Source: Lachnospiraceae bacterium (lineage in GTDB: Bacteria; Bacillota; Clostridia; Lachnospirales; Lachnospiraceae). Taken from it: 64,000 nt of DNA. The stretch is taken from assembly GCA_017503735.1 (NCBI GenBank), contig JAFVSN010000038.1, positions 100,121 to 164,120 of the forward strand. The letters run 5' to 3'. The notes below the pieces were generated by a model. It saw nothing but the letters and a program-made list of their open reading frames with translations. It made no database searches and was not told where the DNA came from. A program made the translations under genes and the position numbers. Below are positions 17,439 to 36,871 of the stretch, piece by piece; the stretch's first letter is position 1, and every line of letters begins with the position of its first letter.

Positions 17439-17476
17439 CCTTTTTATAAATATTCTTGCATAAATTAGCTTTCTAA

Positions 17477-17505
17477 TTGACTTTATAAACTAATTGTTTT
17501 ATCAT
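17477..17505 (+). promoter_or_regulatory. Promoter of the GH43 gene
   Basis: TTGACT (17477-17482) and TATCAT (17500-17505) with 17-base spacing, about 78 bases upstream of the GH43 start. Confidence 0.6.
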
Positions 17506-17583
17506 AGAATCAATGGGGATTTTTTCTGATTTGAACCGATTCCCACCCTTTAATTTTTTGAATCTTTGAGTGGAGGTATTTTT

Positions 17584-18990: not shown

Positions 18991-19314
18991 AATTTTTTAT
19001 TTTCGCCGGCACGCGGCTACGGGCGTGGCGTTTCTTACGATTTGAACGGAGGATGTCAATTGTTCTGTTTGCAAGCGAAACCATTCTACTTCGTGCTTTT
19101 CCCGAAGGGGCGCGCTTTTAGCGCAGTCGAAATCACCTCCTAGCGGTTCTAAGTCTCGAGGCCCCACCCGAGAGACGTTTAGAACCGGTTGGAGGAAGTT
19201 TGACGGAGCGTTGCGCTTTGCACGAAGAGAATGATTTCGATAGGAAACAGAACTCCGGATACCTCCCTCAAATCGGAAGAAGGGGCGTGCCGGCAACAAA
19301 AAGGAGGGTTATTT
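18991..19314. other. Intergenic region with a GC-rich structured element
   Basis: This 324-base gap between the GH43 and esterase genes has no convincing ORF and is visibly more GC-rich and structured than nearby spacers. The main feature is a long imperfect hairpin at 19136-19195, preceded by a GCGC-TTTTA-GCGC hairpin near 19112-19125. The ribosome site of the esterase lies at its end. No promoter for the esterase was identified. Confidence 0.5.
19136..19195. repeat. Long imperfect palindrome (stem-loop)
   Basis: The outer arms CCTCC/GGAGG, then CGGTTCTAA/TTTAGAACCG and GTCTC/GAGAC close on a short C-rich loop, giving a stem of about 25 base pairs. There is no T-run, so it is not a standard terminator. 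It may be an RNA element, a repeat-type (MITE or REP-like) insertion, or an mRNA stability structure. Confidence 0.6.
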
Positions 19315-20853: not shown

Positions 20854-20924
20854 GCACAATATTCTCTTTTATAGTAATTACGCAACGTTTTCCAATCGGA
20901 AAATGCTACATTTCTAAAAGCTTG

Positions 20925-20983
20925 AAAAAGGAGCCTCACAGACCTCGTTTTAACAAAACGTATTCTGCGAAAGCTCCTTTTTT
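20925..20983. terminator. Bidirectional intrinsic terminator
   Basis: AAAAAGGAGC and GCTCCTTTTTT arms enclose an inner hairpin (CGTTTTAACAAAACG). It separates the esterase gene from the convergent nadE. Confidence 0.85.
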
Positions 20984-21123
20984 CTATCTCTGTAGAAATA
21001 TTGTCTTTCTTTTGATTCCCATTTTTTCCCAATTATCATTTTCCGTATGAGATTTTTGTTCAGTCCGACAAGAATTTACATTTTTTTACAATTCCTTTTC
21101 GTTCCGAAATTTCTACACAAGTC

Positions 21124-21852
21124 TTACGGTTCAAAGCACGGCATCAATTCCAGCTTAAACAAATTGTTTCTGTGAAGACGGTCAATGCGCTCCTTCACCG
21201 CTTCATCTTCACAAATGCCTTCTCTGATATAGCGGTCCAGTACCGCATAGGTGAAGCCTAAATTATCCTCATCCGTCTTTCCGCAAAGGCCGTCAATCGG
21301 CACTTTCTCCACCAAATCTTCCGGCAATCCCAGTTCTCTGCCGATGGCCTTTACCTCTGCTACCGTAAAGCGGGACAACGGGCTGAAGTCACCCACACTG
21401 TCGCCGTACCGGGTCGAATATCCCACCCAGTCCTCGGAAAGATTACAAGTGTTTGCCACCCGTCCGTTGACGCTCTGGCTCACCGCATACAATACCGTCA
21501 TACGGATACGCGGCGGAAGATTCGTCCGGCTCTGGGTGGAAATTTCTATATCCGGCAACGCATTTAACACACCGTCCAAAGCCTCTTTGATATTTACTTC
21601 ATAATTTTTAATTCCGAGAAAATCAACCAGCTTTCTTGCCATGTCAATATCCGCCTGTACGCCGCAAGGCATCAGCACTCCGATTACCCGGTCCTTTCCC
21701 AAGGCTTCCACACAAAGGGCCGCTACCACCGAACTGTCCTTTCCTCCGGAAATACCAACCACCGCATTACAGCCGGCACCGTTTTTCTCAAACCATTCGC
21801 GAATCCATTGTACACATCTGTCTTTCATTTCTGCTGCATTAAACGAATACAT
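21124..21852 (-). CDS. nadE: NAD+ synthetase, ammonia-dependent
   Basis: NadE amidates nicotinic acid adenine dinucleotide to NAD+ with ATP. The 242-residue protein has the PP-loop SGGKDSS at 35-41, NLPPRIRMTVLYAVSQ, the substrate-binding NLSEDWVGYSTRYGDSVGDFSPL motif, and VPIDGLCGKTDEDNLGFTY. It lacks the N-terminal glutaminase domain, so it uses free ammonia. The ATG at 21852 has a GGAG site with 8-base spacing; an extension to 21924 is possible but would overlap the upstream gene. It borders the accessory island, where a SIR2-like predicted NADase is encoded; proximity alone proves nothing. Confidence 0.95.
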   Translation of the reverse strand: MYSFNAAEMKDRCVQWIREWFEKNGAGCNAVVGISGGKDSSVVAALCVEALGKDRVIGVLMPCGVQADIDMARKLVDFLGIKNYEVNIKEALDGVLNALPDIEISTQSRTNLPPRIRMTVLYAVSQSVNGRVANTCNLSEDWVGYSTRYGDSVGDFSPLSRFTVAEVKAIGRELGLPEDLVEKVPIDGLCGKTDEDNLGFTYAVLDRYIREGICEDEAVKERIDRLHRNNLFKLELMPCFEP

Positions 21853-21868
21853 TCCGATTACTCCATTC

Positions 21869-22495
21869 TCATCTTTTTTCGAAATTTTTATTATAATGCC
21901 CCTCATGTTCGTCCCAAATATCATTCCAGGCAGTATAACCCTTATTTCCGTTTCTGTATTTTCCTTTCGCTTCCCTTTTAATCCGCTTCCACTCTGTTGT
22001 CATGCAAAGGTCAGCCATCTTTGTAAAGTGTTCCGTTTTACTCTTAAGGCATTCCTCGCACGGCTTTCTTTCATACAAAATACAGTATATTTCATCCTTC
22101 AAATCACGGGCCGCAAAAACAAGATCAATGTCATGTTCTGAAGTGAACGTATACAAGCTCCTTAACGTCACAACGCATTTCGTACAGTTCTCCAGCACCT
22201 GTTTTTTGTCCGCTATCGAAACCACTTGCTTCAAATATACCGGATCTGCATACAATAAAAATTTCTCCACCACTTCCTGTGTTGCCTTTCTCCTTGCCAC
22301 GCGGTCCTCGGTAATCACCTTAATACTGTTATTCCTTCTTTGGATGAGAGAATTAAAGATAAAGCCCAAAACGCCCAAAAGCAAGGTCACACACACGGTA
22401 ATCAGTGCAATGATATCTCCCATCGGATTCTTCGAAGCAGATACCTTTAACAGTTCCGCTATTTCGTCAAGCGACGCTAATATTCTTTCTTCCAT
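21869..22495 (-). CDS. Membrane-anchored protein of unknown function at the island edge
   Basis: The 208-residue protein has a short N-terminal helix, one strong membrane segment at about 27-50 (IIALITVCVTLLLGVLGFIF), then a long cytosolic alpha-helical part. A cysteine-rich stretch CILYERKPCEECL lies near 140. No family was recognised. It starts 51 bases after the small nuclease gene with a GGGAGG ribosome site; a weak TATGAT in that gap may be a separate promoter. A single-helix anchor plus cytosolic helical domain is common among membrane effectors of bacterial conflict systems, but also among many unrelated proteins. Its link to the SIR2 operon is positional only. Confidence 0.7.
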   Translation of the reverse strand: MEERILASLDEIAELLKVSASKNPMGDIIALITVCVTLLLGVLGFIFNSLIQRRNNSIKVITEDRVARRKATQEVVEKFLLYADPVYLKQVVSIADKKQVLENCTKCVVTLRSLYTFTSEHDIDLVFAARDLKDEIYCILYERKPCEECLKSKTEHFTKMADLCMTTEWKRIKREAKGKYRNGNKGYTAWNDIWDEHEGHYNKNFEKR

Positions 22496-22546
22496 CTTAT
22501 GTACACCTCCCTATAACTTTTATCATACTTTAAAGATAGCCCTTTA

Positions 22547-22951
22547 CTAAACACGTTCTACATTATTACGCAGCATTCTTCTAAATGCCAAGACATTTGC
22601 TGAATACTCAGGCGGTGCTATTGCCTTATAGATACAATCACTACGCTGTGCATTATAAAATAACAATCCCAGTCCTGCATTGTATATTGCTTTTCTAAGT
22701 TCTTCACTTATCTTTCGCTCAGGCAAACAAATATAAGCTTCATCAGCTCCTAATTTATGATTCGTCGCTTGTTCGATTGCATGACGCCAATTTTTAATCT
22801 TATACTCGATAGAAATAATCTTCTCTGCCTCATCAACCAAAACCAAATCAATACATCTCGATAAAAAAGGCACCTCTTGTTTTATCATTTTATACTGATT
22901 TTGCGAACAGAAGAAATCATATCCTGCTTCAGCCATTTCGAGCTCCAACAT
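22547..22951 (-). CDS. Small PD-(D/E)XK-type nuclease-like protein
   Basis: A 134-residue protein with the signature of a minimal restriction-endonuclease fold. It has a strand ending in CIDLVLVD (Asp35), a beta turn, then ISIEYKIKNW with Glu49-x-Lys51, followed by an alpha helix HAIEQATNHKLGADEAYICLPE. D, then ExK, then a QA-containing helix is the usual PD-(D/E)XK core arrangement. No target-recognition domain is visible. It lies two bases after the Panacea-like gene's stop and so is part of the SIR2 operon. The start may be the ATG at 22951 or the one at 22936, which has a better GGAG site. Confidence 0.75.
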   Translation of the reverse strand: MLELEMAEAGYDFFCSQNQYKMIKQEVPFLSRCIDLVLVDEAEKIISIEYKIKNWRHAIEQATNHKLGADEAYICLPERKISEELRKAIYNAGLGLLFYNAQRSDCIYKAIAPPEYSANVLAFRRMLRNNVERV

Positions 22952-22953
22952 AG

Positions 22954-23544
22954 TTAATCATCCGCTTTCAATAAATATTTATCTGCTATCACAGACTTTT
23001 TTGTATCCTCTGGATATTTATTATAAACATATCTAAGGAGAGTATCAAGCGAAATTTTATTAATTTGTCCTTTAAACGCTTGTAGTTTATCTTTTTGAAC
23101 GTCAGTAAAACACGACCATACCTTATCTTCCACATATCTCACACCGATTTGCGTAAGCGAATACTCCTTCTCAAACAATTCTTCCTCGCCAAATGCAGCC
23201 TCGCTCCAATTATCCTCTTCGAATACTTCATCACTTTCCACCTTATCTGCTGATGACAAAAGAATTGTTGTCTCATTTGCACAAATCATTCCTATGGAAC
23301 AAAAAAAGCTTAAATCCTCAAAAAGTTGCGGGCTAAACGGACCATAGAAATACGGCTTAAAATCGGGTAGTTCAATAATCAACTCATCCTTAAAAAATTT
23401 CGGATAAATTTCTTTTTCAAAAAGATACATCATTTTTGTCAGTTTTGTTCTACCTATGATAGGTTCATTTATATTCTCCTTCTGTCCCGGAGAATATAAA
23501 AACGAAAGCAATAAATCCTTGCTATTCATCTCCTTCTTATTCAC
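22954..23544 (-). CDS. Panacea/SocA (DUF4065)-like protein
   Basis: This 196-residue protein carries, at about 30-90, the signature of the Panacea/SocA/YwgA-type superfamily: GRTKLTKMMYLFEKE, then FKPYFYGPFSPQLFEDLSFF. The C-terminal part contains a YSLTQIGVRYVEDKVW segment typical of these proteins. Panacea domains act as antitoxins for many different toxins, and SocA is a proteolytic adaptor. In this operon it may control the SIR2-like or nuclease-like partner. It starts with GTG overlapping the SIR2 gene's TGA, with a GGAGGT site eight bases upstream; an internal ATG has no usable spacing. Confidence 0.8.
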   Translation of the reverse strand: MNKKEMNSKDLLLSFLYSPGQKENINEPIIGRTKLTKMMYLFEKEIYPKFFKDELIIELPDFKPYFYGPFSPQLFEDLSFFCSIGMICANETTILLSSADKVESDEVFEEDNWSEAAFGEEELFEKEYSLTQIGVRYVEDKVWSCFTDVQKDKLQAFKGQINKISLDTLLRYVYNKYPEDTKKSVIADKYLLKADD

Positions 23545-24899
23545 TCAGTGACACCTCCAAGTCTATCGACATACTTTTCGAATCCTTCATAAACAAAAGA
23601 CACTTTATCCTCCCCAAAAAAAGTTTTGTAGCGTTCCTCCGGCAACAACATCTTTTGAGCCAAACGCTTGGCCTCCTCACCATCATACCCTTTACTCATA
23701 AATTCATTCAAATAAAACTCCGGATTATCTGATGAATGTAAAACAACCGTCACCTTCACATCGTCTCTTATAGCTTTCTTTAACAAACATCTCATTTCAA
23801 AATCAGCATCGGGAAAAGAATATCCAATAAAAACTATATGGCTTGCTTCATTTACTTCGATAAATGCATTATGCCAAATATTTTTTACGTTAAGATTATC
23901 TAAAGACTTCATAAATGTAGGTGTAATGATGAGACTTCGCAAAACCGGGGCACCGCCTAACAATGTCCCCTCCTGACAATACGGACATATCCTTTCTATA
24001 AATTCATCCGCCGCTATTTCATTTGTAAAATCTACATACATTCTGCCGCATCTTGGACACTCCAACCACGCAAGTGAACCATGCATTTTCAACACTTTAA
24101 TATTCTTGTGTCCTTTTGCCTTTATATTTATAGATGGAATATGTTTATCATCTTTTTCTACACTGTAATCGTAAAAACACAAATCCGGATATATGCACTT
24201 CTTCTTATTTTTCATTTCAGAATTATACCTCAAGCAAACTTCATAAAGTGCACTCTCTAACAAGTCATCCCAATTCATTGTAATAAGCGATACAGAATCT
24301 TCTTTAAAACGCGAATTTGCCCTTTCGGCAAGCAAATATTCGGAAAACTTATTATACACTTGCGGATTACAGTCCATTGAAATTGCACATGACAATGCGT
24401 AAATAATGCACATCTTCAACTTACGATGTATATCTCCCATATCCTCCGGTGAATACAATCGAAAATGTTCTCTGTTGGCCGCCACATTATCGAAGATAGT
24501 AAACAAATCTTCCAATGTAACATTTATATTTTTCACCATATCGTATGCTTCAAAAAGTTTCTCTTTTTTCTTCTTTTCCAACTCCTGACTCAAACCTTGA
24601 AGTTTTCTTACTTCATATATTGCCGCACTATACCTTCTAGCCTTCTCTCCCGGTGCAAAGCTATTCAAAATAAATCCGCCCAAATCCTGCCTGTACTCAT
24701 CAAATGTTTGATAGCTCTCCTTTAAACGTTGTATTCGTTCATTTAAAGTCAGGGATAAAAAATCTTCTTCCAACAACCCATTCATGTTTACATTCGCATT
24801 ATCCAGACTAAAGACAAGTGGCAGAATTTCTGTTTGCATTGGCAAATTTGCAGTTTTTGATGCCCCTGCCCCCAATATATATACTGTCTTTGGTTTCAT
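23541..24899 (-). CDS. SIR2-like domain protein (predicted NADase effector)
   Basis: The 452-residue protein has a Rossmann-type NAD site GAGAS (10-14), TMNWDDLLE around 208-216 (the usual TxNYD position), the catalytic-type His273 in LKMHGSLAW, a zinc ribbon with Cys281, Cys284, Cys305 and Cys308, and IGYSFPDADF at 358-367. This pattern fits bacterial SIR2-family proteins used in anti-phage systems as NAD-depleting effectors, more than deacetylase sirtuins. It sits between a TGT-like gene and a Panacea-like gene, with four-base overlaps downstream. The ATG at 24899 has a GAGGAG site; a GTG at 24917 overlapping the upstream stop is possible. NADase activity is inferred. Confidence 0.88.
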   Translation of the reverse strand: MKPKTVYILGAGASKTANLPMQTEILPLVFSLDNANVNMNGLLEEDFLSLTLNERIQRLKESYQTFDEYRQDLGGFILNSFAPGEKARRYSAAIYEVRKLQGLSQELEKKKKEKLFEAYDMVKNINVTLEDLFTIFDNVAANREHFRLYSPEDMGDIHRKLKMCIIYALSCAISMDCNPQVYNKFSEYLLAERANSRFKEDSVSLITMNWDDLLESALYEVCLRYNSEMKNKKKCIYPDLCFYDYSVEKDDKHIPSINIKAKGHKNIKVLKMHGSLAWLECPRCGRMYVDFTNEIAADEFIERICPYCQEGTLLGGAPVLRSLIITPTFMKSLDNLNVKNIWHNAFIEVNEASHIVFIGYSFPDADFEMRCLLKKAIRDDVKVTVVLHSSDNPEFYLNEFMSKGYDGEEAKRLAQKMLLPEERYKTFFGEDKVSFVYEGFEKYVDRLGGVTE

Positions 24900-24909
24900 A
24901 CTTCTCTCC

Positions 24910-26304
24910 TCACTCACTTAAACACCTCACCCAAACATCAAGATACTCCATTTCGCTCTCACGGATCGCCCCCGAACCCTCATATTTCCCCCTCTGTTCA
25001 ACCAATTCGGAAAGCAATACATCCAACGAATTTTTCCCCGCTCTATAAAATTCTACTTTTTTACACAACAAATAGTGATACAAGCAATTTTGCTTCGTAT
25101 TAGGAGATGCTTTTTTTCTTCTTAACATTTGTTTTTTTCTTTTTACTTCGTAGAACTCTGTACTTTCAAATTGCATAAAATTAATCATATTTGTACCAAG
25201 AATGTGTTCACAGCACTCACATTTACATATCTCTGCATAGTACCTTTCAGAACTCCCCCAATCTTCCTCTCTTGTATCAATAACCCCTATATGCTCAAGC
25301 ATATAAAAGGCTTTCGTAAAATCCACTCTTTGATGAATTGGATAATAATAATACTTTGATACCGGAATGCCACCGCCGACCGGATAAACCTTTCTACTTT
25401 CTCCGTATTCCAGACCATGTGAAACACCGTTTAGCAGTCCCAACGTTTTATGAGTAAGTAGTATTGAAAAATATCCGCCATACATATTATATATCGGTTT
25501 CCCATGCAAACCTCTCAGCAAATCCATAAACCCTCTGAGCTCGGCAAACGAAGCTTCGTGTTCATTTAATCCATCTACCCAAACCGTATATCCGGCACAA
25601 GGCAATCCCCTATAACACTCTACTATTCTCTGCATTTTCTCTGCATCAAATAATACATTCTTATTAATAATTATTTGCGCAAAAACATCTATATTATTAA
25701 ATTTATTCTCTGACCGAGAAACAGCCATATTGGCAAAACTCGTGTTAATTTCCAGCCATTTATCAAATGACACATCCTGCGCATCAAGATAAAAATATGG
25801 AGCAATTAAGAATTTAGGTCTTAACTGCGGCATATTATCAACGGTAACATAATCCAAGTATTTTTTTAAATCATGTTCTTCCATATGCTGATATACAAGA
25901 TTATATTGAAAACTCAAAACTCTATCCAAAAAAGCCTCTCTATCAGCGACTTTCAAAAAATCATCTGCCGAAACAGGAACTCCTGTACGTACTTTTTCCA
26001 GCGGTTCACCATATATTTCAATCAATTTTTCCACAGATTTTTTTATCTTTTCTTCACCGGTTGCTTTTGACTTACTCTTTAGTAGTCTTATCTCATTTTG
26101 AAATGCATATGTAATAGGGTCAATAAAAAAACCTTTCTCCGGTTTTGAAAAGAATTTTTCAACAATAAAATTGGCTATCGCCGTTGAAACAAAAGCCGCA
26201 GAGTTCCCATTAATACCCAAATAGTCATATGCAGAGATTGCCCTCCCCAAGTGCACGTTTTCTGCTACCGTTCCATAACGAAGTATGTGAATAGGCCTAT
26301 TCAT
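24910..26304 (-). CDS. Unknown protein with TGT-like features, first gene of the SIR2 operon
   Basis: The 464-residue protein shows alternating hydrophobic strands and helices suggesting a TIM barrel (KFLIAPYFYLDA at 164, IDVFAQIIINK at 205, AGYTVWVDG at 237, KPIYNMYGGYFSILLT at 269, GVSHGLEYGESR at 293). Near the C-terminus is CKCECC (360-365) with a later His410. The CxCxxC...H arrangement resembles the zinc site of tRNA-guanine transglycosylases, including the DNA-modifying DpdA relatives, although the spacing to His is longer. It is the first gene after a promoter and is followed closely by the SIR2-like gene. A base-exchange enzyme is a hypothesis only; it may be a diverged barrel used as a sensor. 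Confidence 0.7.
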   Translation of the reverse strand: MNRPIHILRYGTVAENVHLGRAISAYDYLGINGNSAAFVSTAIANFIVEKFFSKPEKGFFIDPITYAFQNEIRLLKSKSKATGEEKIKKSVEKLIEIYGEPLEKVRTGVPVSADDFLKVADREAFLDRVLSFQYNLVYQHMEEHDLKKYLDYVTVDNMPQLRPKFLIAPYFYLDAQDVSFDKWLEINTSFANMAVSRSENKFNNIDVFAQIIINKNVLFDAEKMQRIVECYRGLPCAGYTVWVDGLNEHEASFAELRGFMDLLRGLHGKPIYNMYGGYFSILLTHKTLGLLNGVSHGLEYGESRKVYPVGGGIPVSKYYYYPIHQRVDFTKAFYMLEHIGVIDTREEDWGSSERYYAEICKCECCEHILGTNMINFMQFESTEFYEVKRKKQMLRRKKASPNTKQNCLYHYLLCKKVEFYRAGKNSLDVLLSELVEQRGKYEGSGAIRESEMEYLDVWVRCLSE

Positions 26305-26381
26305 ACAAACCTCCTTTAAAATAATACACAACACACACCTGCGTGTCCTTTCCTGTCCGTACAGAATATCTTTCACCATAT

Positions 26382-26410
26382 AATCTAACACTTTTAGTCA
26401 AAAATATCAA
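26382..26410 (-). promoter_or_regulatory. Promoter of the TGT-like/SIR2 operon
   Basis: On the minus strand TTGATA (26405-26410) and TAGATT (26382-26387) are 17 bases apart, with TG one base before the -10 (extended -10). It lies about 78 bases before the start codon. Confidence 0.65.
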
Positions 26411-26471
26411 TATTCATTTTTACCAAACTTCGACCACTTTTTTGTACATTCTGCACAACAAAATTCCAAAC

Positions 26472-26508
26472 AAAAAAAGGCCCGAAAACCCAGTATTTTC
26501 AAGCCTTT
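26472..26508 (-). terminator. Terminator after the DAC-like gene
   Basis: On the minus strand AAAGGCTTGAAAA and TTTTCGGGCCTTT arms are followed by a T-run. It separates the protease/DAC-like operon from the SIR2 operon. Confidence 0.75.
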
Positions 26509-26530
26509 CTCCCACTAAATTGCTCTAAAA

Positions 26531-27985
26531 TCAATTCCGCCAATTATCCTTCGCCCATCCACTACTTTGATTTTTATTGTCCCCTTCCTCATCTTTACTA
26601 TATATCACATCTACCATTCCGTCCTCCGATACAATGATACCGACCATACAACTCTTTTCAGCATTTATCTCTATATAGTTTTTTATAGAATTGTATCTTG
26701 CACCGCGGGAAACGTTTCCTGGTTTTTTGACCTCACCATCCACTATCACACCCATTGCCAAACACTTCCCGCTCCAATCCATAATAAGTGCCCCGTCAAT
26801 GGCAGTCAACCCAAGCATTGTAATCTCATCCCATTGCCCTTCATAATGCTTTCCCTGAGACAAAAACATGCCTCTTCCAACATTACATAATCTCTCTACT
26901 TCTTCCTTCGCAAAATCTTTATCTTTAATCAGAATTGCAGATGTACCATGCTTTTGCTTTTCTAATACCTTTACAAGATCAGCCAGCATATCCGCATCTA
27001 TATCTGATTCCTTTTCCTTTATCGTTTGTATTTCCCTACGTTCCTCATCTTTTTCATCAAGATTGACATGATAATCTCCTTGATAAAAGGATAACATCTC
27101 CCTTCCCTCAACAAAAATGGACCAATGTAAAAAACCTTTAAATTCAACAAAACTCAAGTCGTTTCTATTGTCCTCGGAACATTTTACCAAGTGAGTGACA
27201 ACTAAGTCTTTGCCTTTTGATGTTGCAAGCAACTGTACTTCTCCTTTACCTGCTATCTCCATCAGCTTTCGAATAGTTCTTCTGTTGTCTGATATCAATT
27301 TACGTGTATCATCGTTTCCACCAAACTCCTCTACTATTTCTCCGTAACTATCCGAGGACTCGCCTGCGATAAAAAGAATGGATTTGTTCTGAGCCCCTTC
27401 ATAAAGGCATGAAGACAGACTAATTAACAATTCCACATCCGGCAGATTATAGGTATTCACAATATAATCTACATACTTTCTCTTAAAAAACCATGTCTCA
27501 CACAGGGAACCGACTTCATTATTTCTTATATTCGTATAAAGGTTTGTAATATCATTACGTTTCAAATTACACTTTGATAATTCCAGAAAAACAAACCACA
27601 GAATCTCCTTGCAATGCTTATATTTCTCGGCAATAAAGACAGCAATCACTATTTTCTCTGATTTCACATAAAAAATATTATTTCCGCTTTCGATTACTTC
27701 CGCTTCTTTCTTAGTATGTTCAAGTATTTTCTTTATCCATTCGTAGAAGACTTCTTTCGAAAATTCCTCCGGTAAACACTTCATTGTCTCTTCTTTGGTC
27801 GAAACAGAACTATAAAACCTCTCCTCTCTATCATCAACCGGATTTTCTATATAGTCATCTTCTTTTCTCGGGTTTCTATCACTTTCCGATACAATCAACA
27901 ACATCATTTCAAATGCTTCAGACGGCATCTTTAGATCATACCCGTTCAACTTTTTCATAAGCAAATCTTTAATATCTTTAGCCAT
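26531..27985 (-). CDS. Protein with C-terminal DisA/DAC-like (diadenylate cyclase fold) domain
   Basis: The 484-residue protein has an unrecognised N-terminal half. Its C-terminal part (about 335-465) matches the DisA_N/DAC fold: LEKQKHGTSAILI, LTAIDGALIMDWSGKCLAMGVI (Asp397-Gly-Ala at the adenosine site), RGARYNS at 427-433 in place of the GTRHRAA phosphate motif, and VGIIVSEDGMVDVIY. Family knowledge: DAC domains join two ATP into c-di-AMP, and DAC-like proteins with variable N-terminal sensors have been predicted in conflict systems. The RHR motif is altered, so the domain may be a divergent cyclase or only a nucleotide sensor. It starts 34 bases after the metalloprotease-like gene. Confidence 0.78.
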   Translation of the reverse strand: MAKDIKDLLMKKLNGYDLKMPSEAFEMMLLIVSESDRNPRKEDDYIENPVDDREERFYSSVSTKEETMKCLPEEFSKEVFYEWIKKILEHTKKEAEVIESGNNIFYVKSEKIVIAVFIAEKYKHCKEILWFVFLELSKCNLKRNDITNLYTNIRNNEVGSLCETWFFKRKYVDYIVNTYNLPDVELLISLSSCLYEGAQNKSILFIAGESSDSYGEIVEEFGGNDDTRKLISDNRRTIRKLMEIAGKGEVQLLATSKGKDLVVTHLVKCSEDNRNDLSFVEFKGFLHWSIFVEGREMLSFYQGDYHVNLDEKDEERREIQTIKEKESDIDADMLADLVKVLEKQKHGTSAILIKDKDFAKEEVERLCNVGRGMFLSQGKHYEGQWDEITMLGLTAIDGALIMDWSGKCLAMGVIVDGEVKKPGNVSRGARYNSIKNYIEINAEKSCMVGIIVSEDGMVDVIYSKDEEGDNKNQSSGWAKDNWRN

Positions 27986-28019
27986 TGTAATTTACTCCGA
28001 TTTAGTCGTATTTGTTATT

Positions 28020-30686
28020 TCATATCTGTTCTGTCATTTTACCGGACGCCAACTCAGTCATTACATCGTTTACCCCTTCTTCATACCACCGGAATCCATT
28101 AAGCATTTTAGAAAAAAACACATTTACATTTGTTTCATTTTGCATTTGATATAAGTTTCTTGCAGTTTTCAAACATACATCATCCTTTAAAATTTCTCTA
28201 AAGAAACTTTTAGAACATGAATAAAGATAATCAACAAATTGCCGTAAAACGTAATTATCGGTAAACAACAACCACGGTTCCTTTACAAAATCCGCTGTCT
28301 TAAAATCTGCATAACCATCATAAATATAATTCTCTACAAAACCAAGCACAGTCTCAAACAATTCCTTACAATCTTTAGACCACTCTTTATGGTTTTTGTA
28401 CTGTTCCTCATCCCATCTGAAACAATCCGGCATATCCTCTAACGGTTGACTCATTGTTGCGTAAACGAGTGCAATTCGAATCATTATCTTACTTTGGCAG
28501 AACCCTCTCATACTTTCGCGTTTCTGTTCACTGAGAGTCATTATTGAAGTAATATAGTCCTCCAACGACAGTTTGAGTAATAAGATACAGATAACATCTG
28601 CATAACATTCCTTCATAAAGTAGAAAATATTATTTAATATGAATTCTATTGACAACGTAGTTTCCGAATTTACCGTAACTCCACAAAATGCATTTATATA
28701 ATCCTGCAGGTGGCTCTTCGTTCTTGTATAAAACACCTCCCACTCACGCTCATCATCCGAACCATAGCAAGCTTCAAACTCATCATCAATCATAAAAGAA
28801 AGCAAGTCGATTCCTCTGTCAGATAATACATTCTTAATCGAGCCGGACAAATTCCATCTCAAAACCTCTGCATGATATTCATACTGCTTATTAAAACCTT
28901 TACTTTCCTCTATACTATCCTTGGAGCTTTCGTTCCCCATATAACTATTTACGTTTCTTAAATACTGTTCGTTTTGATTCAAAGAAATATATGCATCAAT
29001 CCACTTTTTTACTTTTTCTTCGAATTTCTTAACGTTTTCCGCTTTTATTACACTCCCGCTGATTTCTTCACCGTGTTCATAATAACCCTTCATCGCCAGA
29101 CCAATCATACGGGCACAAATAGTCAAAATATGTTTATATCTACCCTCGCGATTTCTAATCTTTTTTCCGACAAAATGTGCAGTCTCATGCCCTAATGCAA
29201 AAAGCATGGCTTTAATGTTATACATGTATTTTTCAGGAGTTCTGATTAAAAACAACCTCTTGGTGCTATTCTCACGGCACGGAAACAATTCCATCACTTC
29301 AATATCATCATTTAGACCGGCACACATCAAAAATTCGTATGTTGTTGCAGGCCTAGCATCTTCCACATTCCTGACATTTAAAACCTGCTTTATTGCATAG
29401 ATATACGAATTATACAAAGTAATAAATTTAATCGGCATATCAAAGTATTTTATGTTAAAATCCGTTATCTGGGAATAAATACGTTCCGGTTTAACAAAAT
29501 TCTGTGTACATAATTTCATACACTCCATAAAACTATAGTGATACCTTACACATTCCCTCTCTTTCCCCGATGAAAGAACAATAAACTGATAAAACGGCAA
29601 AAATAACGGAAAGAAAGTATAATCAGAAAAAGGACGCTCATCCCTATTCACGTATTCAAAACGTCGAAATGCATTAATAAGCATCAATAAATTCTTCATT
29701 TCTACATCCGAAAACACTTTTGAATCCGTAGCTTTGACAAAACTTGCAAGCATATCGCAAAACGGGCGTTCCATATTCATATTTGTAATCGTTTTCTTTT
29801 TCTGCGATTCCTCGACTATAGTTTTATTTTCTTTAAACAAAACTCTGGTTGAGACAGCATATGCATAGTTTTGTGTACATAAATTTGAATTACACAAAAG
29901 GCCACTTTCTTTCTTAAAAAAAGAAAGAAAGGCCTTCCACGATATGTTGCGCATAAAAAACGTATCATCTTCAGTGCCAAGAACACTTTTGCGCCATATC
30001 ACCTCATCCCCATATCCTTTATCTCGTAGCTGCTCTTTAATTCTTTGATATAGTAATTCGGTACATTCTCTATTCTTCTCAACAACCTGAAGTTCCACCA
30101 TTGGCACAATATCATTATCCCGAACCCGATTAATATCTGAATCAATTACGTTCCGTCTAACACCCATTATCGAATAAGTATTACGGAGTTTTAAACAGTC
30201 CTCCCTTTGCTCATAATGCAAATCATTTATAATCTTAAATCCTTCCTCTGCAGTTTCGGATTTGATAACAAGAATCATATCACTATTATCAAGTGAATGA
30301 TACAATAAACACCCAGCCCCTGCTTTCTGAAGTTCTTCTCGCGTGTTATTATATCGATTTTCTAATGCTGCTTTCGTATCGTCAGAAAGTTGCATTAAGC
30401 AAACATAAATAAAAGGAGCGTCTATCCTCCAAAATGCTTCTTCCTCTTCCTCGTTTCCATAAAGTCCCCAAAGCACATGAGTGAAATAACTTCCGCTCGT
30501 TTCGTAATCTTTGCTTTTCTCAAACAACGAAGACAAATCCGACATATCCTTTAAAATGACTCTTCCTTCGATGGAAATGCCATCATAGTGACCAAATGCC
30601 TGATAGTCCCAGTCTCTTTCTCTGTCCGAAATCTCGGCAGGTAAAAACTCATTATAAAGCAACAAAGGGCGACATACTGTTCCCAT
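28020..30686 (-). CDS. Large HExxH metalloprotease-like protein of the DAC-like operon
   Basis: The 888-residue protein contains LGHETAHFVG with HExxH at 500-504 in a helix. About 190 residues later comes ECYADVI (Glu693, Asp697), which fits the third zinc ligand ExxAD of gluzincin-type peptidases. The N-terminal 300 residues hold what may be two similar alpha/beta units: 91-175 with SLDNSDMILVI, and 194-285 with GTEDDTFFMRNI. They have a strand-helix-strand pattern recalling ferredoxin-like or nucleotidyl-cyclase-like modules. The remainder is mostly helical. No signal peptide or membrane helix is evident, so it should be cytosolic. Directly followed by a DAC-like gene, it could be a protease effector or a regulator cleaved or activated by a nucleotide signal. 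This is inference. Confidence 0.72.
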   Translation of the reverse strand: MGTVCRPLLLYNEFLPAEISDRERDWDYQAFGHYDGISIEGRVILKDMSDLSSLFEKSKDYETSGSYFTHVLWGLYGNEEEEEAFWRIDAPFIYVCLMQLSDDTKAALENRYNNTREELQKAGAGCLLYHSLDNSDMILVIKSETAEEGFKIINDLHYEQREDCLKLRNTYSIMGVRRNVIDSDINRVRDNDIVPMVELQVVEKNRECTELLYQRIKEQLRDKGYGDEVIWRKSVLGTEDDTFFMRNISWKAFLSFFKKESGLLCNSNLCTQNYAYAVSTRVLFKENKTIVEESQKKKTITNMNMERPFCDMLASFVKATDSKVFSDVEMKNLLMLINAFRRFEYVNRDERPFSDYTFFPLFLPFYQFIVLSSGKERECVRYHYSFMECMKLCTQNFVKPERIYSQITDFNIKYFDMPIKFITLYNSYIYAIKQVLNVRNVEDARPATTYEFLMCAGLNDDIEVMELFPCRENSTKRLFLIRTPEKYMYNIKAMLFALGHETAHFVGKKIRNREGRYKHILTICARMIGLAMKGYYEHGEEISGSVIKAENVKKFEEKVKKWIDAYISLNQNEQYLRNVNSYMGNESSKDSIEESKGFNKQYEYHAEVLRWNLSGSIKNVLSDRGIDLLSFMIDDEFEACYGSDDEREWEVFYTRTKSHLQDYINAFCGVTVNSETTLSIEFILNNIFYFMKECYADVICILLLKLSLEDYITSIMTLSEQKRESMRGFCQSKIMIRIALVYATMSQPLEDMPDCFRWDEEQYKNHKEWSKDCKELFETVLGFVENYIYDGYADFKTADFVKEPWLLFTDNYVLRQFVDYLYSCSKSFFREILKDDVCLKTARNLYQMQNETNVNVFFSKMLNGFRWYEEGVNDVMTELASGKMTEQI

Positions 30687-30704
30687 AAAACCTCCTCAAA
30701 GAAA

Positions 30705-30728
30705 AAGGATGTGAATCATCACATCCTT
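30705..30728 (-). terminator. Intrinsic terminator/attenuator before the metalloprotease-like gene
   Basis: A perfect 10-base-pair stem AAGGATGTGA/TCACATCCTT with a 4-base loop is followed on the minus strand by a T-rich run. It lies between the small ORF stop (30738) and the protease gene start (30686), so most transcripts may end here. Confidence 0.75.
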
Positions 30729-30737
30729 CCGTTACAA

Positions 30738-30971
30738 TCAAAATAATTTTTTTGGAATCGGTGGATAACTCACCTCTCGGTTCTTCTTGAATCTCGTTAA
30801 ATCATTTTCAATACTGCATCCTAAAGGCTCCAAATCGTCATTGGAGACACATGTACTTCCCTTTGGAAATTGCTGACGCGCCAATCTTGCTCGAGTCTCT
30901 CTACCTGCTGACCCTTCAAACTTACATATAGCATTCTTGCATATTATATTCCTTTTAAAATCTTTACCCAT
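30738..30971 (-). CDS. Small protein of unknown function upstream of the protease/DAC-like genes
   Basis: A 77-residue basic protein beginning MGKDFKRNIICKNAICKFEG, with an Arg-rich middle (GRETRARLARQQF) and a Pro/Lys-rich end. No family was recognised. The ATG at 30971 has an AAAGGG site; a longer frame to 31064 has no ribosome site. It is transcribed from a consensus promoter about 150 bases upstream and ends just before a strong terminator, with the metalloprotease-like gene immediately beyond. It could be a small regulator, antitoxin or leader gene of the operon. Confidence 0.55.
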   Translation of the reverse strand: MGKDFKRNIICKNAICKFEGSAGRETRARLARQQFPKGSTCVSNDDLEPLGCSIENDLTRFKKNREVSYPPIPKKLF

Positions 30972-31127
30972 ATTTTTCCCTTTCTGCTCATGTCTGTCAT
31001 ACCCACCCATACGAAACACAAGCACTCGACATGGAGTATATTTATACTTTTCTATAGACATCATAAACTATTGCCAAAGCACATTCCCATGCCGCAAGCC
31101 ATAACTCAGCTAGTAAAAACCATCTTC

Positions 31128-31156
31128 ATCATACACCACTATATATCACTTGTCAA
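31128..31156 (-). promoter_or_regulatory. Promoter of the small ORF/metalloprotease/DAC-like operon
   Basis: On the minus strand TTGACA (31151-31156) and TATGAT (31128-31133) are exactly 17 bases apart. Confidence 0.8.
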
Positions 31157-31398
31157 TGTTTAATACTACTAAATTTTAACCTTTGTTATTGTGCAATATT
31201 CACAAAAATCCTCACCTGTTTTTGTTAACAATCACAGTTGACACTTTCATAAAACTCTTTTCTACTCATAGTATACTTCGTTTCATCAGAATAATACCAA
31301 AATATTATTACAAATCCGTCACTACACAGGTTGTATTCCAAATCTCCATTCCGCACATTTGCGTTCTAAAATATTATATTTTATTATATAAATATTTC

Positions 31399-31427
31399 TT
31401 GGCTTTATAGCAAGTCACAATTATAAT
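31399..31427 (+). promoter_or_regulatory. Promoter of the 1107-residue XRE/PLD-like gene
   Basis: TTGGCT (31399-31404) and TATAAT (31422-31427) with 17-base spacing, 45 bases upstream of the ATG, which has an AGGAGGA site. Confidence 0.75.
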
Positions 31428-31472
31428 ATGATTACAAGCAATTAAACCATCTTAAAAGGAGGATGTATCCAC

Positions 31473-34400
31473 ATGAGCTTTTCATATAAGAACCTTTGGA
31501 ATACCCTGGAACGTTACAACATGAGTAAAACCGATTTGCGGCAAACGCTGGGCTTTAGCACCGCAACGCTTGCAAAGCTTTCAGCAGACCAACCGGTTGC
31601 ATTGGATGTCTTGGACAAAATCTGCGAAAAACTAGGCTGCTCTTTCAGCGACATTATCGCCTACAAATCCGATACTGTCACTTCTCTGCCTTGGTCTACC
31701 ATCTCTCCGGAGCAAACTTATTTAATCAACCTCTATTTTTATCATACCACAGAGCAGACCACCTATGTTTACGGTTTTGCTACTCCTTATCATATAACGG
31801 AAGAGGGTATGAACCACTGGAAGCTTTCTCAAGCAGAAACCAATCACATTTTTTATATCATGCGCGGTTACATCACCGGTGCAAAGTTGCTCACTTTTAT
31901 CCAATCCGCTCAAAACAAAGAAACTATTGGCCAACTCTTAGAAGAAAACAATATAACGCTTCACTCAAAAAAATGTACAAAGGACTCACTAGAGGCTATC
32001 TACGCCCTTTCTATATGTAATGGCAACTCTGTTTATCGTCCAAAATATCTATTGACAACCCATGAAGAGACTGCCGGACTTACCGTTTCCTTAAAACCAC
32101 AGCATTCTTTTGAGGATACCGCTATGTACTGCGAAAGCCTTTTCGGAAGAAACAAACAGTTCTTATACAACACAGACGGTTCTTCGGACTGTAAAAAGTT
32201 GGAAGCCATTTGGCAGTTACTCAAAGAAGAACTCCCCATCCGAGGAAACCTAAACGAGCTGTCCCGTATCAATAATTTTGAAATCTTTTCTCCTTTACTT
32301 CCGTGTATTGATGCTAAAGAGGCCATTCACTGGAAGGTGGATTGCCGCGAAAAACACGGTGAAAAAATCCCAGAGTATATTTCCGTGCAGCTTGACCATC
32401 ACTTTCTTCAAGGTGAGTATCTGGTAAATGTACAGGCCTATAATACTCAGAACGCCTTTTTAGACCGCACCATACAGGTTTACTGCGGAGAAGAAGACAT
32501 CCATCTACACCTTCCATTACAGGAAAGCATTTCTCTTGCTACGGTAAAGGTGTGGCAGGTTAACACCCATAACGCCGACAGTAACCTAATTTATTCATCC
32601 ACCCATAGCCTGATGCGCCACATCCACATGGATATGCATCTCATTCACCGCACCTTTCAAATTGAGGATGCCTGGACAAAAAAAATTGATAAAACACAAA
32701 GTAAGGAAAATGCAAAAACAGACTATAAAAAAGGGCAATACTCTTCTCTACATCCGATATCCATCAGCGACAATTCAGAAGAATACTGGGTATCCGAAGA
32801 AGCGGCAATCAAAAAAGAGGCCAGACTTTTGCTCGGCACCTATCATCCGCTTGCTGAAAAAGGCATTTTTTTGCCTGAAGGCCCGGAAAGTCATCTGCAA
32901 TTTCTTACCTGGTTAAAGATGAAACTCAGTACGACCGACATTCACCGAGTAGTACTTATCGACCCGTATATTACAGCCGAAAGCATCAACAAGATGCTGC
33001 GAAGCATCAGTAATAGCAGTATTGCCTACGAAATTATAACGGACTCCTCTGCTTCCTCGCACAAGGATAGTAGTCGTATTCCAAACATAAAAAAAATGGT
33101 AGGGTTTCTTGACGTTCTTCAACCGGGGAGTTTGAAAATTCGAACGATTTCTACTTCAAAGCCATTCTTACATGACCGTTTTCTCTTTTTACTTGGGAAG
33201 GAATCACAACCAATCGTTTACATCCTTTCCAACTCCCTCGATAACGTCGCCGAGCAACATACCTCTGTTATTATGCCTACCGACAATCAGCTGGCAAAAA
33301 AAATCTTTGAGTACTATACCACTCAGTTTGCGAATTTTAAGGAATCCGGACATCTCGAAATGCTTTACGATTCGGAAAAAGGAAAGAAGATACCACACAA
33401 ACAAAAGCCAGCCTCTACTGTTTCCGATGGCAAAAAGATATATACACCCGAGGATTTTGTGATGCGGCTTGCCTCCGATTTTCCATCCACCTTAGCTTCC
33501 CTCGCCTATATGCAGCCTAAAACGAAGGAAACATGCCTTAAACGTTTCATGGACATGGATAATGAAGAGGTCATTCCTCCGCTTCTCTCCATATTGGATG
33601 ACTACCTCATCCTGTCTTCCCAAAATGAGCAGACAGAAGGAAATTCCTTGCTGCTATCAACGGCACAACTGTTGTTACAACTTCCGGATTCCCAAGGTAG
33701 CCTTTTGCAAAATGCTTCGTGGCTTCCCGACCATTGCTACGAATATCAACGTAATCATTGTGGTTGGTCTGTTCACTTTGCAATAGAACTGCTTTGGAAA
33801 AAGGACCCTGTTCTTTATTGTGACCGGCTATCCGCATTAAAACACAAACTGGAAGAAGACCGTTCCTTTTCGGATCATCGCATCTTCCGACTTGCAGCTT
33901 CTATGATTGGGCACCTCGCCACTGAACTGGCTTTCCATGCTGAAGCACCGGACTTATCTGTGCTTTTCCAGTCAGACCTTCCGCTGTTGCGTGCTCTAGC
34001 CACAACAGCGGTACTCTCTCTTCCGCAAAGAGAGTCCATAAATAGTTCTCTCATTGACTCTCAGGTAGGAATTCTGAAGAAACATCTTTCCGGCAAGGAA
34101 CTGGTTTTAACAGAGCTCTACCAAATCAAGGAATTGCAAGTACTGATATATCAAAAACCCAACGATCATGAACGTCTTCAGCCGGTAATTGATGAACTTA
34201 TCAACCACGTAGTTGATACGATTACCACCATCGCATCAGTCCCTTCAGAGAATAATGAGTTCAGCGATGACGACCTATACCATTACCTGCTTTTGCTTTA
34301 CTCCCGTAATTCGGAAGACATCTGCCAGATCATACAGAGACTTTGTCAGAGCGGTTATTATTCTACCGAAGCTGCCAATAACCATCTGGTCGCTCTGTTT

Positions 34401-34796
34401 TTAGAAAAATACAAAAAAGGATTTTCTGACAGCAATGAAATCTTTACAAAAAGGGATTTACAGGAAAGCCGCATGATTTTACAGTACATCGAACAAACAG
34501 ATATTAAAGGCATCTCAAAGATAAAGAGCGAAATAAAAAAGCTGGAACGTCCACTTCAAGAACGCTTATATCATGCCTTTCTCAAGGCCAAAAACTACCG
34601 TCAATGGAAATCTTCCATCGACCTGTTTTGCTGTCTTGTGTTTATTGAGCTTTGGGTCTCGGAAAACTATCAGTTTACACCGAGCCAAGCAGTAAAAGAG
34701 CTTCAAATGATTTCCGAAAACTTTAAGACCACATTGGAGAACTATTCAGAGGTTTATCAAGCGTTACTGTGTTATTTTCCGAAAATGAAAAACTGA
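31473..34796 (+). CDS. XRE-HTH / PLD-like / helical-repeat protein (VPA1262-like, putative defence)
   Basis: The 1107-residue protein starts with an XRE-type helix-turn-helix (1-66: SKTDLRQTLGFSTATLAKLS). A long unassigned region follows, then at about 440-640 a phospholipase-D-like core: VVLIDPYI (497-499 DPY), KPFLHDRFLFLLG with His567-Asp-Arg569 in place of HxK, and YILSNSLDNV. Residues about 680-1107 are helical and may form repeats. The DPY...HDR...SNS arrangement resembles the VPA1262 family found in defence islands; this is recalled, not searched. The altered HxK motif suggests binding or a different chemistry. It has its own promoter and terminator and is divergent from the protease/DAC-like operon, which the HTH might control. 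Confidence 0.75.
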   Translation: MSFSYKNLWNTLERYNMSKTDLRQTLGFSTATLAKLSADQPVALDVLDKICEKLGCSFSDIIAYKSDTVTSLPWSTISPEQTYLINLYFYHTTEQTTYVYGFATPYHITEEGMNHWKLSQAETNHIFYIMRGYITGAKLLTFIQSAQNKETIGQLLEENNITLHSKKCTKDSLEAIYALSICNGNSVYRPKYLLTTHEETAGLTVSLKPQHSFEDTAMYCESLFGRNKQFLYNTDGSSDCKKLEAIWQLLKEELPIRGNLNELSRINNFEIFSPLLPCIDAKEAIHWKVDCREKHGEKIPEYISVQLDHHFLQGEYLVNVQAYNTQNAFLDRTIQVYCGEEDIHLHLPLQESISLATVKVWQVNTHNADSNLIYSSTHSLMRHIHMDMHLIHRTFQIEDAWTKKIDKTQSKENAKTDYKKGQYSSLHPISISDNSEEYWVSEEAAIKKEARLLLGTYHPLAEKGIFLPEGPESHLQFLTWLKMKLSTTDIHRVVLIDPYITAESINKMLRSISNSSIAYEIITDSSASSHKDSSRIPNIKKMVGFLDVLQPGSLKIRTISTSKPFLHDRFLFLLGKESQPIVYILSNSLDNVAEQHTSVIMPTDNQLAKKIFEYYTTQFANFKESGHLEMLYDSEKGKKIPHKQKPASTVSDGKKIYTPEDFVMRLASDFPSTLASLAYMQPKTKETCLKRFMDMDNEEVIPPLLSILDDYLILSSQNEQTEGNSLLLSTAQLLLQLPDSQGSLLQNASWLPDHCYEYQRNHCGWSVHFAIELLWKKDPVLYCDRLSALKHKLEEDRSFSDHRIFRLAASMIGHLATELAFHAEAPDLSVLFQSDLPLLRALATTAVLSLPQRESINSSLIDSQVGILKKHLSGKELVLTELYQIKELQVLIYQKPNDHERLQPVIDELINHVVDTITTIASVPSENNEFSDDDLYHYLLLLYSRNSEDICQIIQRLCQSGYYSTEAANNHLVALFLEKYKKGFSDSNEIFTKRDLQESRMILQYIEQTDIKGISKIKSEIKKLERPLQERLYHAFLKAKNYRQWKSSIDLFCCLVFIELWVSENYQFTPSQAVKELQMISENFKTTLENYSEVYQALLCYFPKMKN

Positions 34797-34840
34797 GAAT
34801 ATCGCAAAACGACTGACTGTAATTCAACCCATGAGGATGT

Positions 34841-34873
34841 CCCAAAACTATGTTTTTACATCGTAGTTTTGGG
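34841..34873 (+). terminator. Terminator after the 1107-residue gene
   Basis: A perfect 10-base-pair stem CCCAAAACTA/TAGTTTTGGG encloses a T-rich loop, 44 bases after the stop. The T-run after the stem is weak. Confidence 0.55.
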
Positions 34874-34940
34874 CACCCTCTCTTTATTATTTCCAAATGC
34901 GGATTTCCTCTAAAATCAATTCCGACGGTATTCGCCTTTC

Positions 34941-35556
34941 TTACCTCCCCAAATACTCCTTCACAGCCTCAATCACATCCCTCTGCTCTGCTTCATCCAA
35001 ATACGGATGCATCGGCAACGCAAGGACTCTCTTACAAAGCTCCGTGGTCACGGACAAATCCGTCACCACACAAGGTGTATCCCGAAACGCTCCCTGCTCA
35101 TGCATCGCCTTCGGGTAATAAACCATACTCGGAATGCCCTTCTCCTTTAGGGCTGCCTGTAGACCGTTTCTTAACTCCTCCGACGGAAGTAAAATCGTAT
35201 ACTGAGCCCAACTGGAATAGAACCCATCCTTCACTACCGGAATCGTAACAACATCACGCAACGCGTCGGTATAACGCTGTGCCACCCGGTTCACCGCCTC
35301 CAGTTCAAACTCACGGAACGCCTGTAGCTTCACCTGCAAAACAGCCGCCTGCATGGTATCCAATCTGGAATTCATGCCGATACGCACGTTATCATACTTA
35401 TCTGCACCCTTGCCGTGAATACGGAAAGACCGAATGAGCTCTGCCCACTCATCATTATCAGTGAAAATGGCACCACCGTCCCCGTAACATCCGAGAGGCT
35501 TTGCCGGGAAGAAGGAGGTGGTGGCGATATCACCAAAGCTGCAAGCTTCCTTATTA
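34941..35556 (-). pseudogene. 5'-truncated DegT/DnrJ-family aminotransferase
   Basis: The frame encodes only the C-terminal half of a sugar aminotransferase. It begins at about ACSFGDIATTSFFPAKPLGC, with the PLP lysine in FFPAKPLG, continues through DGGAIFTDNDE, RIHGKGADKYDNVRIGMNSRLDTMQAA, and ends normally in VIEAVKEYLGR. The first half (about 180 residues) is missing: the family sequence starts about 30 bases before the ugd stop region ends, with no start codon or ribosome site. A 148-residue product from an internal ATG at 35387 would lack the PLP site. The remnant probably came from recombination at the edge of the polysaccharide locus. Confidence 0.85.
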
Positions 35557-35578
35557 CCTCTTTTTAGATTATATCCCC

Positions 35579-36826
35579 TTAATCTCTCCCAAACAAATCC
35601 CTCGTGTACACTTTCTCTGCCACATCATCCAAGCACGAATCATAACGATTTGCAACAATGGCATCGCTCTGGGCTTTGAATGCCTCCAAATCGTTTACCA
35701 CCTTACTTCCGAAGAAAGTAGTTCCTTCCTCCAAGGTCGGCTCGTAGATGATAACGGTTGCCCCCTTTGCCTTGATACGCTTCATAACACCTTGGATGGA
35801 AGACTGGCGGAAATTGTCGGAGTTTGCCTTCATGGTAAGGCGATACACGCCTACCGTCACATTCTTCTCCTGCGTCGCATCCCACGTTATCTTCTCTGTA
35901 TAATTATAGTATCCTGTCTTTTCCAAAACACGGTCTGCAATGAACTCTTTTCTTGTCCGATTTGACTCTACAATCGCAGACATCATATTTTGTGGTACGT
36001 CCTCATAATTTGCCAGCAATTGTTTTGTGTCCTTCGGTAAACAATACCCACCGTAACCAAATGACGGATTATTATAGTGATTGCCGATGCGTGGGTCCAA
36101 ACATACGCCATTAATAATCTGCTGGGTATTCAACCCTTTCATTTCTGCGTATGTATCCAGTTCATTAAAATAAGAAACCCGAAGTGCCAAATAAGTATTC
36201 GCAAACAACTTTACCGCCTCAGCCTCGGTAAATCCCATAAACAAGGTATCAATATCCTTCTTAATTGCTCCTTGCGCCAGAAGCTCTGCAAATATTTTAG
36301 CCGCTTCAACCAAACGTGCATCCTCTAAATCTGTCCCCACGATAATACGGCTCGGGTACAAATTATCGTACAATGCCTTGGACTCCCGTAAAAATTCCGG
36401 GCTAAATAAAATATTACTACTACCGGTCTTCTCCCTAATGCTCTCCGTATAACCTACCGGTATGGTAGATTTAATGACCATGATTGCAGAAGGATTACAC
36501 TCCATTACCAAGCGAATCACAGCCTCTACCGCAGAGGTATCAAAGTAATTTTTTTGAGAATCATAATTCGTCGGAGCTGCAATCACAACAAAATCAGCTC
36601 CTTCATAAGCCGCTTTGGCGTCTAATGTAGCAGTAAGATTCAACTCCTTTTCTGCCAAATACTGCTCAATATAGTCGTCCTGAATCGGCGACTTTCTGTT
36701 ATTAATCAACTCTACCTTTTCAGGCACAATGTCCACCGCAACTACTTCATTGTGCTGCGCAAGCAACGTTGCAATGGAAAGGCCCACATAACCGGTACCG
36801 GCTACTGCAATTTTGTAGTTCTTCAT
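35579..36826 (-). CDS. ugd: UDP-glucose 6-dehydrogenase
   Basis: This enzyme oxidises UDP-glucose to UDP-glucuronate with two NAD+. The 415-residue protein closely follows the E. coli/Klebsiella Ugd type: [18 protein letters not shown] (NAD site), [71 protein letters not shown] with the catalytic Cys in GGYCLPKD, and the end [11 protein letters not shown]. It has a roughly 20-residue insertion ([20 protein letters not shown]) not present in E. coli. The ATG at 36826 has a GAGGG site. It supplies glucuronate to the polysaccharide. Confidence 0.95.
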
Positions 36827-36871
36827 AAAGCTATCCCTCTTTACATAGTGAACCATCTGCATAAGCAGTCA

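Follow-up and report, generated by a model that had tools for sequence, protein, structure and literature searches.

The stretch of DNA analyzed here, the window, comprises 64,000 nucleotides from a Lachnospiraceae bacterium (GCA_017503735.1, contig JAFVSN010000038.1, positions 100,121 to 164,120) and carries on its minus strand a pair of genes which we call HET–DAC. The first gene (28020..30686) codes for an 888-residue protein, HET, and the second (26531..27985) for a 484-residue protein resembling diadenylate cyclases (DAC); the two open reading frames (ORFs) are separated by a gap of 34 bp. The original prediction, made from the sequence alone, regarded the two genes as a sensor–effector system in which a protease is combined with a nucleotide cyclase. 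The motifs that it named were recovered by ORF and motif checks, namely HETAH (residues 500–504) and ECYAD (693–697) in HET, and AIDGALI, RGARYNS, and VSEDG in the DAC-like protein.

The signals flanking the two genes were also inspected. The terminator claimed 3′ of the DAC gene is present as a hairpin with G–U pairs and a U tract (26472..26512, minus strand). The region folds with −26.6 kcal/mol over 91 nt (z −3.7), and none of 200 shuffled sequences was equally stable; the hairpin was absent from the list of a strict terminator scan. The proposed promoter TTGACA-17-TATGAT does exist (31128..31156, minus strand), and it matches 11 of the 12 consensus positions, more closely than any other of the 28 promoter-like sites found in the region. 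Because shuffled sequence yields on average 20.5 such sites against these 28, the site is weak evidence on its own and suggestive only. Between this site and the HET gene lies a small ORF (30738..31064, minus strand) of 108 codons from the first ATG and of the 77 previously described from an internal ATG. This ORF had been counted as part of the same unit, but it probably lies outside the module, since blastp (E 0.01) against overlap-filtered ORFs from the loci fetched by then gave no relative of it.

The DAC-like protein is composed of a divergent N-terminus, a DACNH domain (approximately residues 187–257), and a C-terminal DAC domain (approximately 339–462). In line with the original prediction, the predicted model of the protein shows a DAC fold; a sequence search of the PDB with the DAC profile gave no match. 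The DAC domain contains D397-G398 and has G-A-R430-Y-N432-S433 where GTRHRA is expected. We compared this region in 25 distinct DAC-family proteins having the domain (32 rows including the window, minus five same-genome duplicates and minus L053 and L054, in which the domain is absent). All 25 have DG[AST], which is IDGA in the window, and none has the RHR loop characteristic of the DAC family: R-[YFHL]-N stands there instead, for example within GARYNS. The CdaA of the host retains RHR. The window protein matches NF053872 (DS2_3_antiphage) with 113.8 bits (E 7.2e-33), the equivalog cut-off of 630 bits not being reached, and is by sequence a distant homologue of DS2_3_antiphage and not an equivalog. 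Since the R-x-N change is common to all 25 proteins, the DS-2 equivalog from Citrobacter among them, we reject the possibility of a degenerate DAC. Judged from the alignment, the R-x-N loop marks a clade to which an anti-phage DAC belongs, and it does not point to a dead enzyme. DACs with this loop also occur fused to repeat domains, as a 903-residue DACNH–DAC protein at locus L075 (8546-11257) carries C-terminal TPR repeats.

HET begins with ferredoxin-like domains (within model residues 3–291), which are followed by a putative gluzincin center and a mostly helical C-terminus. The center consists of H500-E501-x-x-H504 and, about 190 residues downstream, E693-x-x-x-D697, and this combination of HExxH with a downstream ExxxD is what we take to be the gluzincin signature. 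H500, E501, H504, E693, and D697 are invariant in all 18 HET rows. In the predicted structure HExxH is located at the end of one helix and E693 inside another, and E693 may serve as a zinc ligand. The mean predicted local distance difference test score (pLDDT) of this model is 61.7; the listed fold matches cover the N-terminal ferredoxin-like part alone, and no protease was among the 50 fold matches listed in either of two fold searches. A sequence search of the PDB with the HET profile gave no match. We regard HET as a putative zinc protease.

Both genes recur together in other genomes, as the original prediction had supposed, and each is also found without the other. Among 397 genomes of the family, the window genome included, DAC was found in 10, HET in 12, and both in nine, the matches being spread over 10 and 12 different genera, respectively. 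The two genes are adjacent in all nine genomes; in L037 an 83-residue ORF intervenes. The hypergeometric probability of this co-occurrence is 3.5e-15, and 1.2e-14 without the window genome and the doubtful genome G094, whose DAC match consists of 62 residues outside the DAC domain and contains a stop. HET is present in five of 392 genomes of the order and in one of 398 genomes of the phylum, the window genome being counted each time. Scanning the genome collection with the HET alignment, using motifs of one HET subclade, yielded 14 loci (five of them in genomes already in the family search), and a DAC-family gene stands beside HET in all 14, with a DAC domain in 12 of the partners. A first scan of genome contigs with the window DAC had given no match.

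Altogether, a DAC-family partner was found in 17 loci besides the window, in 15 of them with the DAC domain. HET is the first gene in the window, L030, and L031, and DAC is first elsewhere; the spacing, taken from the first start codon, ranges in 17 of the 18 loci from an overlap of 35 bp to 492 bp. The protein distances of HET and DAC are correlated (r 0.84 for 16 loci and 0.79 for 18 loci, reached in none of 5000 permutations), a correlation that could also come from linked transfer alone. On co-occurrence statistics, adjacency, and distance correlation together we reject a chance pairing, with the cautions that either gene also occurs alone and that the scan motifs came from a single HET subclade. 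In L061 an ORF of 122 codons on the other strand lies between HET and DAC. The HET–DAC pair L050 comes from a metagenome-assembled genome (MAG) with the label Muribaculaceae (Bacteroidota), yet its HET clusters with those of the Lachnospiraceae, which points either to horizontal transfer or to a misbinned contig.

HET without DAC occurs in three of the 12 family genomes (G225, G097, and G149), and in the order genomes G668, G422, and G458 no DAC adjoins HET. At L040 and L062 a SIR2_2 gene follows 2 to 3 bp behind HET, the two SIR2 proteins being 40% identical, and at L038, L039, and L064 a protein with three to four hydrophobic segments adjoins HET. L063 has an AAA-ATPase beside HET and L065 a tRNA methyltransferase, which is probably there by chance. 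In the phylogenetic tree a group with support of 100/99 unites L038 with the window, L030, and L031, and L040, L062, L063, L064, and L065 stand apart from every DAC-partnered row; L038, the window, and others form long branches, for which the program warns of false joins. L039 was left out of the tree; its HET is split over two ORFs. The relationship of L064 is weak (25.4 bits in one search, missed by the same profile in another). The HET of L038 (9101-11497) adjoins a 430-residue protein with four hydrophobic segments; further upstream a 273-residue protein seemingly has two transmembrane (TM) segments and a beta-rich domain, and a Cap15 match was not found for it. In L053 (8731-9717) and L054 (8725-9717) the DAC-family partner ends after DACNH beside an intact HET, and tblastn detected no clear trace of a DAC domain at either locus (lowest E 0.26). 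DACNH alone may have a role of its own. These two loci are related, and their adjoining genes seem to be similar to those for non-ribosomal peptide synthetases.

Conversely, NF053872 matched in six of 381 genomes of the class, the window's included, the others being three strong (L073-L075) and two weak matches (G988 and G1004), and relatives of the window DAC were found in seven plasmid records. At L074 (8408-12132) a subtilase gene follows the DACNH–DAC gene after about 525 bp, a second possible neighborhood of a DAC and a protease. On a Priestia plasmid (L026, 3833-6822) a SMODS nucleotidyltransferase gene is divergent from an R-x-N DAC; together with Citrobacter and Gluconobacter, this makes three plasmid cases in which a DAC lies close to a nucleotidyltransferase. 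No phage record matched the window DAC. Carriage of HET on phages or plasmids was considered and discarded: the window HET was unmatched in plasmids and viral contigs, the L048 HET had no match in phages or plasmids, nor was any obtained when viral contigs were scanned with A3 and A4.

In two loci a third, effector-like gene belongs to the operon. The operon at L060, from a MAG of the Bacilli, has the order Cap15–DAC–HET; its first gene codes for a two-TM protein in which the Cap15 domain, a receptor for cyclic dinucleotides, was matched with E 1.2e-15 (phmmer to Cap15 7n34 E 0.0086), and 15 bp separate the end of this gene from the start codon of DAC. The other strand carries genes of a type II cyclic-oligonucleotide-based anti-phage signaling system (CBASS), i.e., a SAVED–HNH effector, JAB, and E1–E2; a cGAS/DncV-like nucleotidyltransferase (CD-NTase) was not identified on this 9.2-kb contig. 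In L059 (Lachnospiraceae) HET overlaps at its end with a gene for a SLATT_5 2TM effector. Of the 127 listed neighbors, 90 were scanned with PADLOC, which matched 181 models with E-values of 1e-5 or lower, 25 of them being listed; a mad3-like match (E 7e-29 at best) and the second members of endonuclease-effector models were not assigned to loci. Ten neighbors were scanned singly, with matches in four (the three CBASS genes of L060 and an AriA-like ATPase at L048) and none in six. The expected location in defense islands thus holds in part: the context of defense genes is real in some loci and was not seen in others.

Next to the module in the window lies a second putative defense unit (22954-26391, minus strand). 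It contains an unclassified 493-residue protein (24910-26391), a SIR2_2-type protein (23541-24917, E 1e-6) whose gene overlaps that of the former, and a 196-residue protein with the PADLOC candidate match PDC-M19A (E 6e-9). For the SIR2 and the 493-residue protein blastp found no relative among the fetched ORFs. On the other side and divergent from the module, a plus-strand gene (31473-34796) codes for a 1107-residue protein with an N-terminal HTH_26 and a VPA1262 family N-terminal domain, the latter matched above the cut-off with 173 bits. The G+C content is 0.35-0.37 over 22500-31500, i.e., the SIR2 unit and HET–DAC, and 0.43-0.53 at 15000-22500 and 0.42-0.46 at 31500-37500. As it drops again to 0.34 beyond 37500, an acquired island at 22500-31500 is only suggested. 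Ten proteins of the window (21124 to 34796) were scanned against Pfam, and among these no effector reading a cyclic nucleotide was recognized.

HET–DAC shares features with several known systems. DS-2 (DefensePredictor) consists of a phospholipase, a cGAS-like CD-NTase, and the DAC described by NCBIfam NF053872; on a Citrobacter plasmid the DS-2 equivalog (803.8 bits) is encoded behind a patatin and a nucleotidyltransferase. The window DAC is homologous to it across DACNH and DAC (E 7e-33), with the motifs DG[AT] and G[AS]RYNS in common, but its partner is an HExxH protein, and neither CD-NTase, phospholipase, nor DACNG was matched among the ten scanned window proteins. As in CBASS, a cyclase stands beside an exchangeable effector-like gene (Cap15 in L060, SLATT_5 in L059); here, however, the cyclase is a DAC instead of a CD-NTase and the usual partner a putative zinc protease. 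With the housekeeping enzymes CdaA, DisA, and CdaS/CdaM the window DAC shares the fold and the DGA aspartate; it differs in the R-[YFHL]-N loop of its clade, in having DACNH and a variable N-terminus, and in being accessory to the host CdaA. In having HExxH followed by ExxxD, HET resembles gluzincins such as thermolysin, M48, and ImmA/IrrE-like proteins, but it has about 900 residues, ferredoxin-like N-terminal domains, and no useful family match. L060 alone recalls Panoptes (OptS mCpol and OptE 2TM-beta) in joining a nucleotide synthase to a Cap15-like membrane protein, with a DAC in place of mCpol and a putative protease in addition; the ten window proteins scanned include neither mCpol nor a 2TM-beta effector.

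We tentatively propose that HET–DAC is a two-gene immune module operating with a cyclic nucleotide, in which a DAC replaces the CD-NTase and HET acts as executor. The DAC protein would sense a phage cue via its variable N-terminus and DACNH, and the DAC domain with its R-x-N loop, whose fold and conserved residues have been computed, could then synthesize a cyclic dinucleotide, either c-di-AMP or a related one. This signal or contact with the DAC protein might open HET at its HExxH/ExxxD site, the ferredoxin-like domains possibly being the regulatory part, and HET would cleave host or phage proteins and so stop the infection. The operons with Cap15 or SLATT_5, where the gene order is observed, would add a membrane receptor–effector.

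Several observations weigh against this proposal. Neither a family nor a fold was matched by the catalytic part of HET with a useful E-value, and Peptidase_M48 was matched weakly (E 0.16) by one of 15 HET members. In Pfam the window protein scores 20.8 for DAC (PF02457) and 18.6 for DACNH with a gathering score of 27; the PF02457 gathering score is passed by the relatives L031, L032, and L029, and L030 and the DS-2 equivalog L028 gave no match at E 0.1. HET stands beside SIR2 or membrane proteins without DAC at the five loci described above, and the position of L038 within the window's own subclade fits HET as a switch better than as an effector. Because L053 and L054 keep HET with a DAC-less partner, local synthesis is not always needed; between these loci dN/dS is 0.17 for HET and 0.47 for the partner ORF. 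No HET was found within the 20 kb fetched around L073-L075 or in the six plasmid records examined of the seven, and the pairing is therefore not obligate. Many of the neighbors examined are ordinary genes and not defense genes, such as SecA and aspartokinase (L030), MatE (L052), lacto-N-biose phosphorylase (L058), and glycosyltransferases (L048 and L049). Defense function, enzyme activity, and product of HET–DAC are a computational proposal built on sequences and models.

The swapping of partners around HET favors a different reading, in which HET is a constant regulatory protease that senses infection or is released by it and then cleaves or switches on an exchangeable output partner. The outputs would be DAC (whose nucleotide would act on Cap15, SLATT_5, or host c-di-AMP receptors; DAC-family genes in 17 loci besides the window), a SIR2 NADase (L040 and L062), or a membrane protein (L038, L039, and L064). 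SIR2, Cap15, and SLATT_5 proteins are terminal effectors in known systems, and Pfam describes SLATT_5 as a 2TM effector domain. The branching of L038 is in favor of this reading, but the SIR2-partnered HETs are distant, and L064 and L039 are the weak and the split HET, respectively. Moreover, where neighbors were scanned, which was done for some loci, a third effector-like gene was recognized in two HET–DAC loci only. A precedent is given by nuclease proenzymes of bacterial immunity that are activated by a protease (PMC12799240). We regard HET as an upstream switch as possible, if somewhat doubtful, and rank HET as executor slightly ahead, because the two-gene modules show no other recognized effector and because at L053 and L054 HET persists where the DAC domain is absent. 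The sensor–effector idea of the original prediction is strengthened by the kinship to DS-2 and by Cap15 and SLATT_5 in two operons; the partner swapping permits the reverse order as well.

An accessory c-di-AMP signaling pair for ordinary physiology, such as osmotic or envelope stress, would explain the metabolic and envelope genes at L030, L052, L058, L048, and L049, and such bacteria use c-di-AMP as a housekeeping signal. We consider this unlikely given the patchy distribution of the genes in family, order, and phylum, the divergence to about 15% identity, the kinship to the DS-2 DAC, and the type II CBASS and AriA-like ATPase genes near L060 and L048. Still less probable is a guard in which the nucleotide made by DAC holds HET, or Cap15 in L060, in the off state until phage proteins sequestering the nucleotide release it. 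A model for such a guard is Panoptes, in which a cyclase making 2′,3′-c-di-AMP is coupled to a Cap15-related 2TM-beta effector that is active once the nucleotide is lost (PMC12657218). The gene order of L060 would suit this arrangement; however, only a single locus yielded a Cap15-like gene, mCpol was not matched among the scanned window proteins, and HET modules lacking DAC need no such decoy.

The DAC clade and its link to defense are already known. A pair of DAC and metalloprotease was not described in the literature searched (a review on DAC architectures was outside its scope), nor did we find there a paper combining metalloprotease, diadenylate cyclase, and anti-phage. Three features appear to be new: the pairing of cyclase and protease, operons in which a DAC is the sole recognized cyclase next to Cap15 or SLATT_5, and a single HExxH family whose partner can be SIR2 or a membrane protein instead of DAC. 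It is conceivable, though rather uncertain, that HET, with its ferredoxin-like domains as regulators, is a general zinc-protease immune switch with interchangeable partners, be it a DAC making a cyclic dinucleotide of the R-x-N type, a SIR2 NADase, or membrane proteins, and that in combination with DAC and Cap15 or SLATT_5 it constitutes a class of cyclic-nucleotide defense systems having a DAC as the only cyclase.

DACs are known for making housekeeping c-di-AMP; a link to phage defense now exists for one DAC, which lies beside an apparent CBASS. In HET–DAC the only cyclase recognized is a DAC of this anti-phage clade, which forms a small module of patchy distribution together with a putative zinc protease. 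If our proposal is true, there would be cyclic-nucleotide defense without a CD-NTase, and nucleotide signals would be linked to proteolysis. HET–DAC would then be a compact system for studying the product of the R-x-N DACs and for asking whether proteases read or gate cyclic nucleotides.

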